Assembly: GCA_012837715.1 (NCBI GenBank)
Contig: DUQR01000031.1
Span: 1-64,000 of the forward strand
Direction: 5' to 3'
DNA length: 64,000 nt
From: Bacillota bacterium
GTDB lineage: Bacteria; Bacillota; UBA4882; UBA10575
Position 1 is the stretch's first letter. Each line of letters begins with the position of its first letter. The position numbers and the translations under genes were made by a program. The notes under the pieces are model-generated. The model searched no databases. It had not been told where the DNA came from and saw nothing but the letters and a program-made list of their open reading frames with translations. Shown here piece after piece: positions 12,822-55,609 of this stretch.

Positions 12822-13274
12822 TTCTCTCCCTCCGGAACAGTATTTGTAATCAGTATTTACTATTCCGGGTAATTATATACATCATTTTGGTGATTATTTT
12901 CTGCAAAGCAACGGTTCAAGCTCCGCTTCGTAATGAATTTCACCCAGGAATTCAAGACAGGAGAACACCATCCACTCCTAGCTGGGGAATACAGGCAAAG
13001 GCAAGTCATTCAGCCAGCGGCGAGATGTATTTTCTGAGTATTCGTCCACAAAAAAGAAGAGAAAAAGCTGATCTTCACCATTGCGAAATTGTTTATTACT
13101 TGGTATAATTAGTTGGTCCTAATTTTATGTTATATTAGAGAGAATTCCTTCTCTCCAAACTACTGAAGATGGACATTATCATCAAAAAAAATATTTAAAT
13201 CCAAAGCACCCGAGTTGGACAAGGCTTTTCTCTTCGAAAGGGCTTTCCCGTTCGGGACGGAAAGGAGACTGATC
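12822..13274. other. Intergenic region before the acyl-CoA ligase gene
   Basis: About 450 bases between divergent genes. It holds the degenerate repeat copy described at 12917-13043 and an AT-rich stretch at 13090-13200. AAGGAGA at 13261-13267 is the ribosome site of the ligase gene. I see no RNA gene or terminator. Confidence 0.5.
12917..13043 (+). repeat. Degenerate copy of a sequence also found near 54861
   Basis: The segment beginning AAGCTCCGCTTCGTAATGAA resembles 54861-54975, which reads AATCTCCGCTTCGCAACGAA. Both continue with GGAG.ACACCAT and later AATACAG.CAAA. Read in one frame both give peptides of the form F-x-LRF-x2-N followed by FK-x2-EH, and both end in Phe-stop. This suggests relics of related coding sequence. 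Similarity fades in the second half, so homology is only probable. Confidence 0.35.
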
Positions 13275-43311: not shown

Positions 43312-44004
43312 TTATTCGACCATCCGCTTTAAAGCTTGCACATCGCTAATCTTCACCGAGGCACCGTGAAAATCAATGAGTCCTTCCGCTTTCATCTTGC
43401 CCATCTCCCGGGAGAGTGAGGGCCGGGCCACATTCAAAAAATCCGCCATCTCATTGCGGTTAAAGGGTAACATGAAAGTCGTCGCACCTGCTTGCTTTGC
43501 TTGCTCCAGCAAAAAAGTGGCGATTTTCCCCCGTAGACTCTTTATGGATAGTTGCTCCACCTTTCGATTTAAGGACATGGCTTTTTCCGAAACAATCCGC
43601 AGCATATTCGTGATCAACCGACGGTGGCTCGGACACTGCCGTGCACAGTTCCCTACAATTTTTTCGGGCGGTAGGAAAAAGACCTCCGTCTCCTGCTGGG
43701 CAATGACCGTCGCCGGCCATACTTTTAACCCGGAAAAGGCCGCCATCTCAGCAAAAAGATCCCCGGCGTGTATCGAGGAGATGATCACCCGGTTCCCGGC
43801 CACATTCTCCTTGGTCACAATCGCCTGTCCGACTAAAACCACTCCAACGCCTAAGAATTTTTCCCCGGCTCTCGTCACATATTCATTCTTCCGATAACGC
43901 CGGACCACCGGTTGGAGGCAGGCCAACATGATCCGAAGTTCGTCGGGCTCAATCCCGGTAAACAAGGGACAATGGGTTAATTGCTCTTTCCATTTGACAA
44001 ACAT
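43312..44004 (-). CDS. Crp/Fnr-family regulator, HcpR-like
   Basis: A 230-residue regulator with a cyclic-nucleotide-type beta-roll (about 10-120), a long C-helix and a HTH_Crp domain near 165-215 (EMADFLNVARPSLSREMGKM). It lacks the four-Cys cluster motif of Fnr. It is divergent from the ferredoxin-hcp genes, an arrangement typical of HcpR, which controls hcp in nitrosative stress. The GGTAACCATGGTTACC palindrome sits in the shared control region. ATG 44004 is chosen over 44031, which lies in that palindrome. AAGGTGGG precedes it. Confidence 0.8.
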   Translation of the reverse strand: MFVKWKEQLTHCPLFTGIEPDELRIMLACLQPVVRRYRKNEYVTRAGEKFLGVGVVLVGQAIVTKENVAGNRVIISSIHAGDLFAEMAAFSGLKVWPATVIAQQETEVFFLPPEKIVGNCARQCPSHRRLITNMLRIVSEKAMSLNRKVEQLSIKSLRGKIATFLLEQAKQAGATTFMLPFNRNEMADFLNVARPSLSREMGKMKAEGLIDFHGASVKISDVQALKRMVE

Positions 44005-44022
44005 TCCTGCACCCACCTTTTT

Positions 44023-44038
44023 GGTAACCATGGTTACC
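44023..44038. promoter_or_regulatory. 16-base palindrome in the crp-hcp control region
   Basis: GGTAACCATGGTTACC is perfectly symmetric and lies 19 bases upstream of the regulator start and 126 bases before the ferredoxin gene. It is a candidate HcpR operator. A related GTAACCTTGGTTAC is preserved in the relic locus at 54764-54777. Confidence 0.65.
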
Positions 44039-44163
44039 GCGCATTTGCCCTCATTTTATTACAATAAACTCAACAGCGCAAGAAGTGCGTAAAGCAATAA
44101 ATACTGCTTGCTACTGCCCAGTATTTTACTGGAAATAAATTCGAGCCAAGAAGGGGGATTAAA

Positions 44164-44907
44164 ATGAAAACCATGAGGAAAATTATTTCAATTGATGAAA
44201 AAAAGTGTAATGGTTGTGGGCTCTGTATCACGGCCTGTCACGAAGGCGCCCTGCAACTGGTCGACGGGAAGGCCAAATTAATCTCGGAATCCTACTGTGA
44301 CGGTCTGGGGGATTGTCTTCCGGAATGCCCGACCGGGGCGATCACCATTGAAGAAAGGGAAGCGGACCCCTTTGACGAAGCCGCCGTTCAAGAAAACATG
44401 GCCCGGATAGCGCAGGCCAAAGCGGAAGCCAACAACCCACCGGCACTGGCGTGTGGATGTCCGGGGACAGCCGCCCGCACAATCCGGCCCCAAACCCCGA
44501 CTGTTCAGGAGACCAATCACCCGCCCCAGGCCGCGCTGGCTTCCCAGCTTAGACAGTGGCCCTGTCAGCTGCAGTTGGTACCCGTAAACGCGCCCTATTT
44601 CCATGAAGCGAACCTGCTGATCGCCGCCGACTGCGCGGCTTATGCCTATGCCAACTTCCATCAAGATTACATGCGAAATAAAGTAACCTTAATCGGTTGT
44701 CCCAAACTAGATGCGACTGATTACAGCGAAAAAATCGCCGCTATTTTGGCTGCCAATCAAATTAAAAGTATTACTGTCCTCCGCATGGAAGTACCTTGCT
44801 GTAGCGGTCTGGTCCACGCCGTAAAAACTGCCCTAATGAAGAGCGGCAAACTCGTCCCCTGGCAGGTAGTGACCATTGGCACCGATGGTTCGATTGTTGA
44901 ACAATAA
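44164..44907 (+). CDS. Ferredoxin-like protein of the hcp locus
   Basis: A 247-residue protein. The N-terminal domain has a four-Cys cluster motif (Cys15, 18, 21, 25) and a second group C-x5-C-x3-CP (YCDGLGDCLPECPTG). The middle (80-115) has a CGCPG segment and a Pro-rich linker. The C-terminal half (about 125-247) has a CPKLDATDY segment and PCCSGLVHA. This layout is usual for the ferredoxin encoded next to hcp in Clostridia. It is probably the electron donor to Hcp. AAGGGGGATTAAA precedes the ATG. Confidence 0.85.
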   Translation: MKTMRKIISIDEKKCNGCGLCITACHEGALQLVDGKAKLISESYCDGLGDCLPECPTGAITIEEREADPFDEAAVQENMARIAQAKAEANNPPALACGCPGTAARTIRPQTPTVQETNHPPQAALASQLRQWPCQLQLVPVNAPYFHEANLLIAADCAAYAYANFHQDYMRNKVTLIGCPKLDATDYSEKIAAILAANQIKSITVLRMEVPCCSGLVHAVKTALMKSGKLVPWQVVTIGTDGSIVEQ

Positions 44908-45025
44908 ATAGCTCAACCCGGTAAAAGTCCCAACTGATGTTAAGACTACAGAACCACTTAAGCTTTCCCGGCTAAACAGCCGAAAGCCAAAACAGTCTGA
45001 ACGCAATATTAAGGAGGGTTAATCA

Positions 45026-46609
45026 ATGAGTAACATGTTCTGTTTCCAATGTGAACAAACCGCAGGGGGAAAAGGCTGCACCAAAGTGGGTGTCTGCGGT
45101 AAACAGCCAGATGTGGCCAATCTCCAAGATGAATTGACCGGGGCCCTGGTGGGGTTAGCTCGGGCGGCAGCAGGGAAAAAAACCGACCGCCGGGCCGATG
45201 ATCTAATGATGCAGGGCCTTTTTGCCACCATCACCAACGTTAATTTCGATGCCGCACGCATCGAAGAGCTTATCGCTGCGGTCCGCAGCGCAAAAGAAAC
45301 CCTGGGTGGCGCCGAAGACTTCGCCCCCGGCGCGCTCTGGAACGGCGACCCTGACCTGGTTTCCTTACGTTCCCTTCTTTTGCTCGGCCTACGGGGAATG
45401 GCCGCCTACGCTTGGCACGCCGCTGTCCTCGGGAAACGGGATGAAGAAGTTACCGCCTGGTTCTACAAAGGAATGCGGGCCATTGGCGAGGAGCACTCCG
45501 TTGACGAAAGCTTGGCCCTGTTGATGGAGTTTGGCGAAATCAACTTAAAATGCATGGCTCTCCTCGATGAAGCCAATACCTCCGCCTATGGACGCCCGGT
45601 CCCGACCAAGGTCACCACCATCATCGAAAAGGGGCCTTTCATCGTGGTCTCCGGCCATGATTTCCATGACTTAAAACAACTATTGGAACAGACCGAAGGG
45701 AAAGGAATCAATATTTACACCCATGGGGAAATGTTACCAGCCCATGCTTACCCCGAACTGAAGAAGCACCCGCATTTAAAGGGGAATTTCGGCACGGCCT
45801 GGCAAAACCAGAAAAAAGAACTGGATGGGATCCCCGGAGCGGTTCTCTTTACCACCAACTGCTTGATGCCGCCGAAGGATTCCTACGCCGACCGGGTCTT
45901 TACCACGGCTGTAGTTGGGTATCCCGGCTTGGTCCATATCCCGGAAGGAGAAAATGGGCAGAAAGATTTTACCCCGGTGATCAATAAAGCCTTAGAACTC
46001 GGCGGTTGGTCGGAAGACCATAAAATGACCGGAATCAACGGTGGAACTACCCTGACGACCGGGTTTGGCCACAACACCGTGCTGGGCGTGGCCGACCAAA
46101 TAATCGACGCCGTTAAAACCGGTGGGATTAACCACTTCTTCCTGGTAGGCGGTTGCGACGGGGCCCGTCCCGGCCGGAACTATTACACTGAATTTGTGAA
46201 ACAAACACCCAAAGACACGGTGATTCTAACCCTTGCTTGCGGGAAATACCGCTTCAATGACTTGGATTTGGGTGAAATCGGCGGCTTACCCCGTATTCTC
46301 GATATGGGACAGTGCAATGATGCTTACTCCGCCATCCAAGTAGCAGTGGCGCTGGCTAAAGCCTTCGATTGCGACGTCAACGCACTGCCCCTGACCCTGG
46401 TCCTCTCCTGGTATGAGCAGAAGGCAGTCTGTATCCTCCTCACATTGCTGGCCCTTGGGATCAAAAACATTTATCTCGGGCCAACCTTACCCGCTTTCGT
46501 CTCGCCTAATGTCCTGCAAGTACTGGTCGATAAATTCGGGATTAAACCCATCAGCACCCCGGAAGAAGACTTGAAAGCAATCTTGGACTTGCCAACTTCT
46601 CTTCGGTAA
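45026..46609 (+). CDS. hcp: Hybrid-cluster protein (hydroxylamine/NO reductase)
   Basis: A 527-residue Hcp. The N-terminal cluster cysteines are Cys6, Cys9, Cys18 and Cys24 (CFQCEQTA and CTKVGVCG). The hybrid Fe-S-O cluster ligands are in the conserved HGEMLPAHAYPELKKHPHL, TNCLMPP, GGCDGARPGRNYY and LACGKYRFN segments. Hcp reduces NO and hydroxylamine in anaerobes. AAGGAGGGTTAATCA precedes the ATG. It follows the ferredoxin gene and is divergent from the regulator. A partial copy of its own 3' end follows the stop codon. Confidence 0.96.
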   Translation: MSNMFCFQCEQTAGGKGCTKVGVCGKQPDVANLQDELTGALVGLARAAAGKKTDRRADDLMMQGLFATITNVNFDAARIEELIAAVRSAKETLGGAEDFAPGALWNGDPDLVSLRSLLLLGLRGMAAYAWHAAVLGKRDEEVTAWFYKGMRAIGEEHSVDESLALLMEFGEINLKCMALLDEANTSAYGRPVPTKVTTIIEKGPFIVVSGHDFHDLKQLLEQTEGKGINIYTHGEMLPAHAYPELKKHPHLKGNFGTAWQNQKKELDGIPGAVLFTTNCLMPPKDSYADRVFTTAVVGYPGLVHIPEGENGQKDFTPVINKALELGGWSEDHKMTGINGGTTLTTGFGHNTVLGVADQIIDAVKTGGINHFFLVGGCDGARPGRNYYTEFVKQTPKDTVILTLACGKYRFNDLDLGEIGGLPRILDMGQCNDAYSAIQVAVALAKAFDCDVNALPLTLVLSWYEQKAVCILLTLLALGIKNIYLGPTLPAFVSPNVLQVLVDKFGIKPISTPEEDLKAILDLPTSLR

Positions 46610-46661
46610 ATTCGGGAATAAACCCATCAGCGCCCCGGAGGAAGATTTAAAAGCCAGCTGA
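46604..46661 (+). repeat. Duplicated hcp 3' end (copy B)
   Basis: This segment repeats the hcp end (46529-46587) with few mismatches and, in frame, reads KFGNKPISAPEEDLKAS-stop beside KFGIKPISTPEEDLKAI in hcp. It starts at the hcp stop codon, so it looks like the remains of a second hcp copy fused to the first by unequal recombination. Confidence 0.75.
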
Positions 46662-52200: not shown

Positions 52201-54600
52201 GGTCAGCGCTTTCACCCCAATATAATTGGCATAGGGGTGAAAAGTCACCGCTTGGTAGTTACTGACCGCCCGGCCGCCATCTTCAATCACCGTCGCTTGA
52301 ATGATCGCGTTCAGTCTGGCCGGTGGGGTTAAACCCTGTGGAAAGCGGTAGGTGAAAGTCGCTTGGCCCTCGGTATCAAGTTTGTCCTCACCCAGCTCCT
52401 CTGTTTTCGCCACAAAACTACGGTCCGGGTCGCCAAAACGGTACGAAGCATAGGCGGGAGGCTTAAAGTCGGCGGCTTCCAAACGCAGCTTGACCTCGGT
52501 TCTCCGCCCCGCTGCCGGCGGGCCGAACAAGTTAACCCCTTCAACTTTAATCTGGCATTCTTCCCCCGGTTGATAAGTATCCCGGTCGGGCGTGACAGTG
52601 ACTTTGATCCGGTCCGGCATAAACTCTTCCACCTGGAAGGAGGTGCTGCCAATCACGTTCTCACCCACGATAATATGGGCCTGGTAATTCCCGGTCTGGG
52701 CGTAATCGGGGATTTCCAGTTTGAAGGCACAAGCCCCCCGGTCCGCCGTGTTCCCAACCAGCTCACGAAAGATCTGGCCGTCGGGCTGCCGAACTTCCAA
52801 CTTGACCGGGAACTCCGGCGGTAGAACCGCCCCCGGTCCGCGCACCACCGCTACCAAGTTACCTTCGTCCCCGGGGCGGAAAATGTCCCGGTCTAAGTAG
52901 GCAAAAGCCTCATACCCTTCTTCCAAATAATCACGGCCGCGCACATCAAAATCGGTGGTCGTGATCTGACTACTCTTTAGATGGACAAAGGAAAAGTCAT
53001 TCCCCGCTTCCGCCAGGATAATTAGGGGCTCGGCCGGATCGCCCGGCAGCTGATAACCGGTAAAGCGGGCAATCCCTTGCGCATCGGTCTCGGCTGTGGC
53101 CATAATCTGATTATTTTTACTGATCAGACTGACCTTCACCTTTGCTTTGGGCGCCAAGGTTTCCAGCGAATTGACCCAGACCAGCAGATCGTTTTTTCCC
53201 ATTTTTCCGACGATCCCCAGGTCGGTAATGATCACATACTTATAATCATTACGCCAGCGGCGTTCATAATCATAGACCGCGACTTGGAAAACACCCTTAA
53301 ACTCGGCGTCCATGTACTGACCAAGGTTGATCGCAGTGGTCACCACCTCGTTTTTGGCCCCGGCAATCTCCAGCTCTTCTTCCTTCACCAGCTTGCCTAG
53401 GTAGGGCAACTGCCAGCTATAAGCGTACTCGGACTGGGTGGAATCCAAGTGATTGAGAAAGGGAATCAGGTTGTTGGCGTAAATCTGATGGATCTCCAGC
53501 TGCACCCGTTCGATATTAACCGTTTCCAACCCCAAATTGAGGGCGCCTTGACTGTTCAGATACCGTCCACGGGAGGTAAAGCTGAGTCCCGGATCCAGAT
53601 CCCCCAGGGTGATCATGGCCGCAAAGTCCTTGGCCAGCGGTAAACCATTAACCGCCGGTAATCCGGCATTTAGACGGAGATGATAATTCTCCCCCCCTTT
53701 AAACTGGTCACTCTTAATGAAGAGCAGATCTTTATCGGTCTCAACGGTATAATTAACCCCCGGTTTAAGCTCAATGAAACCGGCCGCCGTTTCGGCATCC
53801 ACCGGCTCTGAACACTGCACAGTGATCCAGTATTTGCCGCCAGCGCCTTGTAAAGCCGCATTCAGGATCTGCAGCGGTTTTTTGGCGCCCACCGTGGTCT
53901 CGGCGCGGTAGGCAGCGGCCAGTCCCTTTTGCCCGCCGACACAGAGAAAGTCCTTGGGCAGCGTAATCGTTATTTTCTGTTCCTTCTCCTTAAAGGGAAC
54001 CGCAGCACTGACCACGGTCAATTCCCGGCTGTTTCCGGTCTCTCGCACGGTGTAGGCCAGTTCAGCGTTGGTTCCCGCCAGCTGGAGTTTAAGCGCCTTC
54101 TCAAGCTCAATGGGGGAAACCGGATAATTGAAATGAAGCCTCGCTTCCAAAATTACGCCTTCCCGGTCCTCAGAGGTGATAAAAGTAGTCGTGATCTTTT
54201 CTACCCGGAAACGGGCGGTGGAAAATTCCACGGTTCTTTTTCCGGAGACCGGTTTTCCCTGCACCGAAACGAGTCCACTGTTCACCTCCGCCTGGTATGT
54301 GGTGGACGGCAATAAAGGAACTTCCGGTAAAAAACGGAGTTCCCGTTTAGTAACCCAGCGGTACTTACCTGGAATCGCCGGGGTAAATTTGACGAATTCG
54401 GTGGAGAGGGTCACCCCCACCTCTTCTTCCTTGACCATATCCTCGGAAAAGGTGAAGGTCAAGTTGGTGTGGGGTTCCACCTCTCCCGCCGGTTCCATTC
54501 CCAATAAGCGCACGTTACCACCGGCATTGAGGATCCAAAACGAACAGCAGACAATAAAGATAAACAAAATTCCGTAAACGATCGGTTTCTTGTTACCCAA
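49228..54600 (-). CDS. Bacterial alpha-2-macroglobulin with thioester
   Basis: A 1790-residue protein of the YfhM/ECAM-like A2M family. One N-terminal hydrophobic segment (about 8-27) is followed by several MG-type beta domains, a bait-like region and a thioester domain. The thioester motif GCLEQ has Cys1341 and Gln1344. These proteins trap proteases in the periplasm and pair with PbpC, which repairs the wall. The start is TTG after GGGGGGTAGG. No lipobox is seen, so it is held by the anchor. It is the longest gene in the window and ends 143 bases before pbpC. Confidence 0.93.
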   Translation of the reverse strand: MGNKKPIVYGILFIFIVCCSFWILNAGGNVRLLGMEPAGEVEPHTNLTFTFSEDMVKEEEVGVTLSTEFVKFTPAIPGKYRWVTKRELRFLPEVPLLPSTTYQAEVNSGLVSVQGKPVSGKRTVEFSTARFRVEKITTTFITSEDREGVILEARLHFNYPVSPIELEKALKLQLAGTNAELAYTVRETGNSRELTVVSAAVPFKEKEQKITITLPKDFLCVGGQKGLAAAYRAETTVGAKKPLQILNAALQGAGGKYWITVQCSEPVDAETAAGFIELKPGVNYTVETDKDLLFIKSDQFKGGENYHLRLNAGLPAVNGLPLAKDFAAMITLGDLDPGLSFTSRGRYLNSQGALNLGLETVNIERVQLEIHQIYANNLIPFLNHLDSTQSEYAYSWQLPYLGKLVKEEELEIAGAKNEVVTTAINLGQYMDAEFKGVFQVAVYDYERRWRNDYKYVIITDLGIVGKMGKNDLLVWVNSLETLAPKAKVKVSLISKNNQIMATAETDAQGIARFTGYQLPGDPAEPLIILAEAGNDFSFVHLKSSQITTTDFDVRGRDYLEEGYEAFAYLDRDIFRPGDEGNLVAVVRGPGAVLPPEFPVKLEVRQPDGQIFRELVGNTADRGACAFKLEIPDYAQTGNYQAHIIVGENVIGSTSFQVEEFMPDRIKVTVTPDRDTYQPGEECQIKVEGVNLFGPPAAGRRTEVKLRLEAADFKPPAYASYRFGDPDRSFVAKTEELGEDKLDTEGQATFTYRFPQGLTPPARLNAIIQATVIEDGGRAVSNYQAVTFHPYANYIGVKALTGNYCELGKPFSLKYVVLDPAGNPSPAAQLTAEVYHLTWNSIYRKDTDGRYRYVSEIERRKVYNEELTPQQGEAEFTYTPRDYGRYQIVLRDPKTEAQASHSFYASGWGYSPWAMEDPDKIELDLEQDRYQVGEEARLQIKAPFAGKALVTVERERVYDYWVVDLAANTGVVSIPVKEEYKPNAYLSVHLLRSVNGLEDQAPARAFGTIPLMVDNNNARLGVDLTVPAELRPNREVEIKVQVKNSGPGTYLTLAAVDEGICQLTDYAAPDPFAFFYGKRRLSLTSHDLYGLLLPEVEGMKTQSTPGGDRDFLDGVRKQNLNPVSLRRVKPVSLWSGLVSPDASGEAMVKFTLPQFNGTLRLMAVAFDGQRFGSAEMKTIVRDPLVMTPTFPRFVAPLDRFTVPVAVFNGTGQAGEFKLRLSSEGPVTLESKPLVTLELGPEEEQVAYFQLKASQGMGKLRFRLEVEGNGELCALEEELALRPPVPVTHQISSGTITHTEPLTFNIKDRWLPGTATYTLALSPFPTVELAGSLEYLLTYPHGCLEQTVSKLFPLLYFDQLLSAVEGGTFTGTADYYVTEGIEKIEAMQLRDGSFAYWPGGNRGNEWSSIYAAHFLVEARKAGYVVADRVYNRMISYLKATVRGKETALHRLQAKIYALYVLSLNGSPDLSTMAYWRRYASELSNDVRALLAGAYFYTGDRVTAREILPTSFAVQIFPRESGGYFNSTVRADAIILSVLAEVDPHNPAVYQLVNRLNKAALGGRWGTTQENAFALMALGKLYQEKSDGTYWGEVYLGKEKIAEFDSAQDLVLNDPRLAEGKITVKLEGDGECYYYLKSSGLSTRTDLSEESNGIQVTREFFDRHGNPVALNQIRQGDLLIARITIQPEQAGLEHVGIIDLLPAGLEMENPRIESRESISWLTQEAMRPDYMDVRDDRLILFFSFPKVRTYQFYYALRAVTCGEFILPSIKAECMYAPEIASFSSSGAIRVVRD

Positions 54601-54723
54601 GATAACCTACCCCCCGTCCAAATTCCCAAAATCCGCTTGCTTAAGGTTTTATGGTATTCCTAATTTAATATTCGGTAAATGTTACTAGTATCCTCTATAT
54701 CTTGTAAAGTATGGAAACACAAG

Positions 54724-54832
54724 ATCTTTCCATTTGGTAAACATACCCGCCACCACTTTTTTTGTAACCTTGGTTACCGCGCATTGGCCTTCATTACATT
54801 ACAATTGACTTAGCAGCACAAGAAGCACAAAC
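54724..54832 (-). pseudogene. Relic of a crp-type regulator 5' end and control region
   Basis: This segment matches 43985-44093 over its length, including the start codon region. Read on the minus strand from 54744 it gives MFTKWKDL, like MFVKWKEQ in the intact regulator. The palindrome GTAACCTTGGTTAC at 54764-54777 corresponds to the 44023-44038 operator. The remainder of the coding sequence is absent. Confidence 0.75.
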
Positions 54833-54860
54833 CGGCACCGGGGCCGAATGGTATTTCCTT

Positions 54861-54975
54861 CAATCTCCGCTTCGCAACGAATACGGATGGCGAAAATTTT
54901 AAGATCGTGGAGCACACCATTCGACCCTGGCCCGCAAATACAGATCAAACGCGCGAAGAGCACTATTTCTAAAAT
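54861..54975 (+). repeat. Degenerate copy of the 12917 sequence
   Basis: Related to 12917-13043, as described there. In the plus frame it gives a run of 37 residues beginning FNLRFATNTDGENFKIVEHT and ending HYF-stop. No start codon or ribosome site is seen, so it is not an intact gene. Confidence 0.35.
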
Positions 54976-55028
54976 AAATACGATCTTTTGTCTTGAATCC
55001 TCTTTTTCGTTTGCAAGTCAAAAAGCTT

Positions 55029-55080
55029 GGTTTAACCAATTAGCACTCCGGAAGAAGACCTGAAGACCATCCTGGGTTGA
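55029..55080 (+). pseudogene. Relic hcp 3' end (copy C)
   Basis: In frame this reads STPEEDLKTILG-stop, matching STPEEDLKAIL of the intact hcp (residues near its C-terminus). The preceding bases still resemble the hcp coding sequence for a short way. Its own terminator follows at 55090. Together with the crp relic to its left it marks a second, deleted crp-hcp locus. Confidence 0.75.
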
Positions 55081-55089
55081 GTGAACGGC

Positions 55090-55118
55090 AAAGCGGAGAT
55101 GGGATTCATCTCCGCTTT
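55090..55118 (+). terminator. Terminator of the relic hcp copy
   Basis: A perfect 11-bp stem AAAGCGGAGAT/ATCTCCGCTTT with loop GGGATTC lies ten bases after the relic stop. The T-run is the end of the stem itself. Confidence 0.7.
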
Positions 55119-55189
55119 GATTGACTATATTTTACATATTTTCCCCAAAAGAGCTTTGTCAAGAAATTTTATAGATAAGGAGGGAGATT

Positions 55190-55609
55190 ATGAGCCGATT
55201 AACCAATTTTAAACGTCAACATCGGGAAATCAGAGAACTGATAAGCACGATCACCCCTTTACTGGATCGGGATCTACTTCTTATAGAGCCGACACAAGTC
55301 CGGTACCAACTCTCCGCCCTTTTAGGCAAACTGATGATGCATCTGGCGATGGAAGACCGGTTTCTTTATCCTCGCTTAATAAAGAGTAAGAACCGACAGA
55401 TCCAAACCACCGCAAACCGATTCAGTACTGAGATGGGCGACTTGGTCAAAGTTTTTAATGACTACTCCAAAAAATGGTTGAGCTCCAGTTCGATCAGGGC
55501 AAACCCGGACGCCTTTATCGAGGATTCCCACGACACTTTTCGGGCATTATTGAACCGGGTTGACCTTGAAGATCTAGAATTATATCCCCTTGTTGAGGAG
55601 GCAGGATAA
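55190..55609 (+). CDS. Hemerythrin domain protein
   Basis: A 139-residue all-helical protein. The hemerythrin/HHE pattern is seen as FKRQHREIRELI (His11) and MHLAMEDRFLYPRL (His near 51, Glu near 55). SHDTFRALLNRVDLEDLELY with Pro next (His near 114, Glu near 129) completes it. These residues bind a di-iron centre that senses or stores O2 or NO. It may function with the hcp NO-defence system, though it has its own ribosome site (AAGGAGGGAGATT) and terminator. Confidence 0.85.
   Translation: MSRLTNFKRQHREIRELISTITPLLDRDLLLIEPTQVRYQLSALLGKLMMHLAMEDRFLYPRLIKSKNRQIQTTANRFSTEMGDLVKVFNDYSKKWLSSSSIRANPDAFIEDSHDTFRALLNRVDLEDLELYPLVEEAG

Follow-up and report, generated by a model that had tools for sequence, protein, structure and literature searches.

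Remains of a frdX–hcp operon and probable reciprocal loss of its duplicates in sister bacterial lineages

What is left of an operon after its genes have been deleted, and how much of its history can the remains still tell? The question is raised by two loci in the window, the whole 64,000-nucleotide stretch of bacterial DNA analyzed here: one holds an intact crp-type regulator gene, fd and hcp (site A), and in the other, at 54724-55118 (site C), the start of a crp-type gene is followed by the last codons of an hcp gene. HcpR2-regulated frdX–hcp loci are known from Clostridia, Thermotogales and other groups (Rodionov 2005, PMC1274295; Clostridioides difficile, PMC12915319), the HcpR2 consensus being GTAACnnnnGTTAC and the predicted HcpR regulons including hemerythrin-like genes (PMC1274295). 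In C. difficile, NO raises the expression of frdX and hcp ~200-fold, and this induction depends on hcpR (PMC12915319). The loci studied here resemble these systems in having a Crp/Fnr regulator beside hcp and frdX, and the box GTAACnnnnGTTAC is present upstream of hcp/frdX; they differ in that a second copy of the operon lies across the pbpC–A2M gene pair and is reduced to its ends.

Results

Anatomy of the Scar

According to the original prediction, the start and control region of a crp-type gene, palindrome included, stands here before the last hcp codons and a terminator, in the order and orientation of the intact locus at 43312-46609. Both BLASTN and matches to the corresponding junctions of relatives bear this out (Table 1). 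When 54600-55190 was compared with the whole window, 54725-54825 matched 43985-44085 with 83/101 identities (82%; E 6e-24) and 55031-55075 matched the hcp end at 46542-46586 with 36/45 identities (80%; E 2e-5), the order and strand of both matches agreeing with the intact locus. The crp stub, with an ATG at 54744-54742, approximately six codons and a ribosome-binding region, merges into the A2M promoter region, which matches site C of G005, G002, G004 and G007 (z 28-48), and the box region has its counterparts in the crp/fd control regions and at site C of G002 (z 31). Within the former leader, 54861-54985 aligns with its counterpart in G004 (83/126, z 16.8), and the last part with that in G006 (22/27). 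At the other end, the hcp tail and terminator (55029-55118) match the corresponding part of the operon in G007 (72/97; z 26.6 against shuffled sequences), G003 (z 22.3) and G002; the terminator hairpin is a 13-bp inverted repeat. The ~45 bp of the junction (54986-55030) had no match to the junctions of any relative compared, and between the scar ends there is no intact coding sequence, only a 71-aa ORF (54848-55063) without a Pfam match.

A similarity confined to the operator motif was the outcome that the original prediction had singled out as speaking against it. The operator is indeed the best conserved part, but the 101-bp segment, leader, hcp tail and terminator match as well; the probability that only the operator is shared, by chance or through convergent regulation, is practically negligible, and we rejected chance or operator-only similarity on these alignments. 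An assembly artefact, either a misjoin or a collapsed repeat, is very improbable, too: the assembly consists of 53 contigs, and its two control regions are similar, but the scar differs by 18-20% from the intact copy, has a decayed tail of its own and is flanked on both sides in the same order as the corresponding site of G007.

Table 1. Positions of features at the intact locus (site A) and at the scar (site C) of the window
Feature	Position	Strand	Remarks
hcpR-like crp/fnr regulator	43312..44031	-	longest ORF
HcpR-type box and fd -10, intact copy	44024..44065	+	
fd (frdX-like ferredoxin), intact copy	44164..44907	+	
hcp (hydroxylamine reductase/hybrid cluster protein)	45026..46609	+	NF003658, 773.7 bits vs. 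cut-off 367
Second, partial hcp tail	46608..46660	+	directly behind intact hcp; 44/51 to first tail
crp (hcpR) start stub	54725..54762	-	within 101-bp match to 43985-44085
HcpR-type box GTAACCTTGGTTAC	54764..54777	.	fits HcpR2 consensus GTAACnnnnGTTAC of PMC1274295
-10 element TACAAT, former fd promoter	54800..54805	+	22 bp right of box
Former fd 5' leader	54806..54985	+	stops ~20 bp before expected fd start
Deletion junction	54986..55030	.	~2.4 kb gone (fd and nearly all of hcp); size inferred from intact copies
Last hcp codons (~16) and stop	55031..55080	+	stop TGA in scar, TAA in relatives
Native hcp terminator hairpin	55089..55119	+	matches hcp terminator of G003, G002, G007
Hemerythrin-domain gene, intact	55190..55609	+	PF01814, E 1.9e-15; orphaned third gene of original cluster

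The pattern of a box, 22 bp and TANAAT occurs twice in the genome of the window, at 44024 and 54764, in both cases at the loci considered here; it is also found at the fd promoters of same-genus relatives. With the transcription start placed by spacing near 54812, the center of the scar box lies ~41.5 bp upstream, where class II activators of the Crp type usually bind.

The Intact Locus

The hcp gene of site A is the sole intact copy in the genome assembly (one match in its own genome). The start of the regulator beside it is likely the inner Met at ATG 44004 rather than ATG 44031, since the latter lies within the box, its own operator; alignments with several relatives begin close to this inner Met. 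The helix-turn-helix motif, considered with regard to Glu181 of E. coli CRP, reads ARPSLSR and was aligned with ARPALSR (chain 1o5l) and TRPSLSR (7t8o). Behind hcp, the tail is repeated with a period of 76 bp, and the end of the intact gene itself is altered to LDLPTSLR; together, these suggest recombination at the 3' end of hcp.

The Same Site in Related Genomes

If an operon was deleted at site C, related genomes could retain it there, a check also proposed in the original prediction. In the same-genus relative G007, the site of the scar, between the A2M and hemerythrin genes, is occupied by a complete fd–hcp operon that has an HcpR-type box of its own. The gene order is merR, crp, pbpC and A2M on the minus strand, then fd, hcp and hemerythrin on the plus strand, followed by a restriction-like gene; it is the order of the window except that fd–hcp stands to the right of A2M and not to the left of pbpC. 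The flanks of the scar are those of G007, with A2M on the left and the hemerythrin and restriction-like genes on the right. G004, G002 and G005 agree with G007 as far as their contigs extend, and part of this arrangement is seen in them, too. As the sisters carry intact fd–hcp at the site and the window only its two ends, we agree with the prediction that a duplicated locus lost one copy by deletion.

What the deletion removed was, however, less than a whole crp–hcp locus. The fd–hcp middle is gone, but in G002 and G005 the intact site-C operon has only a crp-start stub and a box upstream of fd; the loss of a second crp gene, as implied by the prediction, is therefore rejected. Because these two genomes carry the stub, too, that of the window is probably older than the deletion. 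The deleted unit is frdX–hcp, and the hemerythrin gene survived; a homologue of it stands directly behind hcp in G003, G006 and G007.

The loss also appears to be reciprocal, the sisters having no fd–hcp beside crp and mostly a decayed fd promoter there. In the outgroups G008, G013 and G010 and in the basal G001, one box is common to crp and fd, as at site A of the window; G001 further has crp, fd–hcp and pbpC as on the left side of the window, and its contig stops before site C. At the crp-side box of the sisters, the 22-bp spacer is kept, with a -10 of TACAAC in G002, G003, G005 and G007 and of TACACC in G006; among the fd promoters in use that were listed in the comparison, all -10s end in T. 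We read the sisters' element as what probably remains, in decayed form, of the promoter of an operon once present at site A, a relic found in five of the six sisters; the exception is G004 with TACAAT.

The arrangement differs in G003 and G006, where crp adjoins fd–hcp–hemerythrin and close homologues of pbpC and A2M are missing, as though these two genes had been cut out together, probably independently in each; in both (G003, L063 9641-13490; G006, L064 175-4314), crp stands beside fd–hcp with two boxes. In other genera of the family, A2M–pbpC occurs without crp–hcp (G011, L080 1819-10652; G012, L081 8153-16866), which suggests that the hcp cluster entered the pbpC–A2M neighborhood within the genus of the window. 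In G012, A2M–pbpC adjoins a HAD-type gene similar to one that lies close to merR in G003. A search of the contig collection with fd retrieved only one contig from the genus of the window, apparently that of G004.

Gene Trees

The rpoC tree joins G000 with G006 (100/99), and since the crp and merR trees disagree with it on this pairing, the neighborhood has probably recombined. Two old paralogue groups did not emerge from the trees of the operon genes: in that of hcp, the branch grouping G006 with the sisters has support of 58/64, and that of fd is unresolved (p-AU 0.134). A recent relocation, transfer or gene conversion is thus compatible with the trees.

Discussion

The scar, whose anatomy can be read piece by piece, and the intact operons that sister genomes hold at site C call for an explanation, and the simplest is duplication followed by reciprocal loss, as the sisters bear a decayed promoter beside crp and the window a scar at site C. 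We consider it probable that an ancestral two-copy frdX–hcp operon lost its site-C copy here and its site-A copy in the sisters. The genus ancestor would have had two HcpR-controlled frdX–hcp operons, one beside hcpR at site A and the other beyond pbpC–A2M at site C, the latter with the hemerythrin gene behind it; that they coexisted in the common ancestor, we infer from their present distribution. In the lineage of the window, the site-C copy would then have lost ~2.4 kb, from just ahead of the fd start to a point ~16 codons short of the hcp stop. The box, the promoter and the leader would have stayed behind, as would the hcp tail with its terminator and the hemerythrin gene; the deletion was presumably tolerated since one copy sufficed. 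The sister lineages would have taken the opposite course and lost the copy at site A. Besides the gene trees, two observations sit less well with this history: site C of G001 lies off its contig, and G004 keeps TACAAT at site A.

We favor duplication and reciprocal loss over a recent move of the operon, in which the scar marks the original site, the operon beside crp arrived recently and the redundant original was then deleted. The newcomer could have come by recombination between similar control regions within the genome or from a relative with the order crp–fd–hcp–pbpC; taken jointly, these routes are unlikely, though they deserve serious attention. The fd and hcp of the window are approximately as close to the sisters' site-C genes as expected of orthologues, the control regions at sites A and C are 82% alike, and the LDLPTSLR end with a second tail behind it looks as if a new hcp had been joined to an older tail. 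Such a history, however, requires a move away from site A in the ancestor and then back in the lineage of the window, and at site A one box is shared and the -10 is intact, as in the outgroups and G001. That the scar is simply ancestral and the intact copy a newcomer was in fact our first idea; it was weakened by the shared box of the outgroups and G001 and by the sisters' decayed promoter, and we keep it as a rival.

The case is one of ordinary gene duplication and loss, unusually clear. It is like the divergent resolution of duplicates in that sister lineages keep opposite copies, each with a relic of the other; the published examples that we found are mainly eukaryotic, whereas the present duplicate is an operon of bacteria and its relics are of two kinds, a decayed promoter in the sisters and the scar of a gene deletion in the window. 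It thus shows in legible form how the duplication of a nitric-oxide-stress operon was resolved in opposite ways by sister species of bacteria, the relics of both copies being still in view.

Whichever history is correct, reciprocal loss or recent arrival, the scar may be more than debris. The putative relic promoter is probably still HcpR-responsive, reading toward the terminator and the hemerythrin gene, and a seemingly orphan hemerythrin gene may still follow an HcpR promoter, a warning for annotation. A stronger reading, that the promoter is under selection as an HcpR switch for this gene or as the source of a ~300-nt HcpR-controlled RNA, the gene loss having rewired the operon, strikes us as rather doubtful. 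The promoter has kept its box, its 22-bp spacer and its TACAAT, and the genome has only one other site of this kind; the terminator closes the stretch, and an HcpR-linked regulatory RNA locus is reported from Bacteroides thetaiotaomicron (PMC13370916). Against this, the scar is known from one genome only, and the predicted RNA does not fold more stably than shuffled sequences (z -1.05), giving no support for a structured RNA in the scar; an Rfam scan of the window found only a tRNA. The hemerythrin gene is the only coding gene behind the promoter, but it lies beyond the old hcp terminator. In addition, a ~90-bp intergenic element (TTCAA.CTCCGCTTCG.AA.GAAT...) is present in two copies, at 12915-13002 and 54859-54952, with weaker relatives in G003:C2 and G000:C27.
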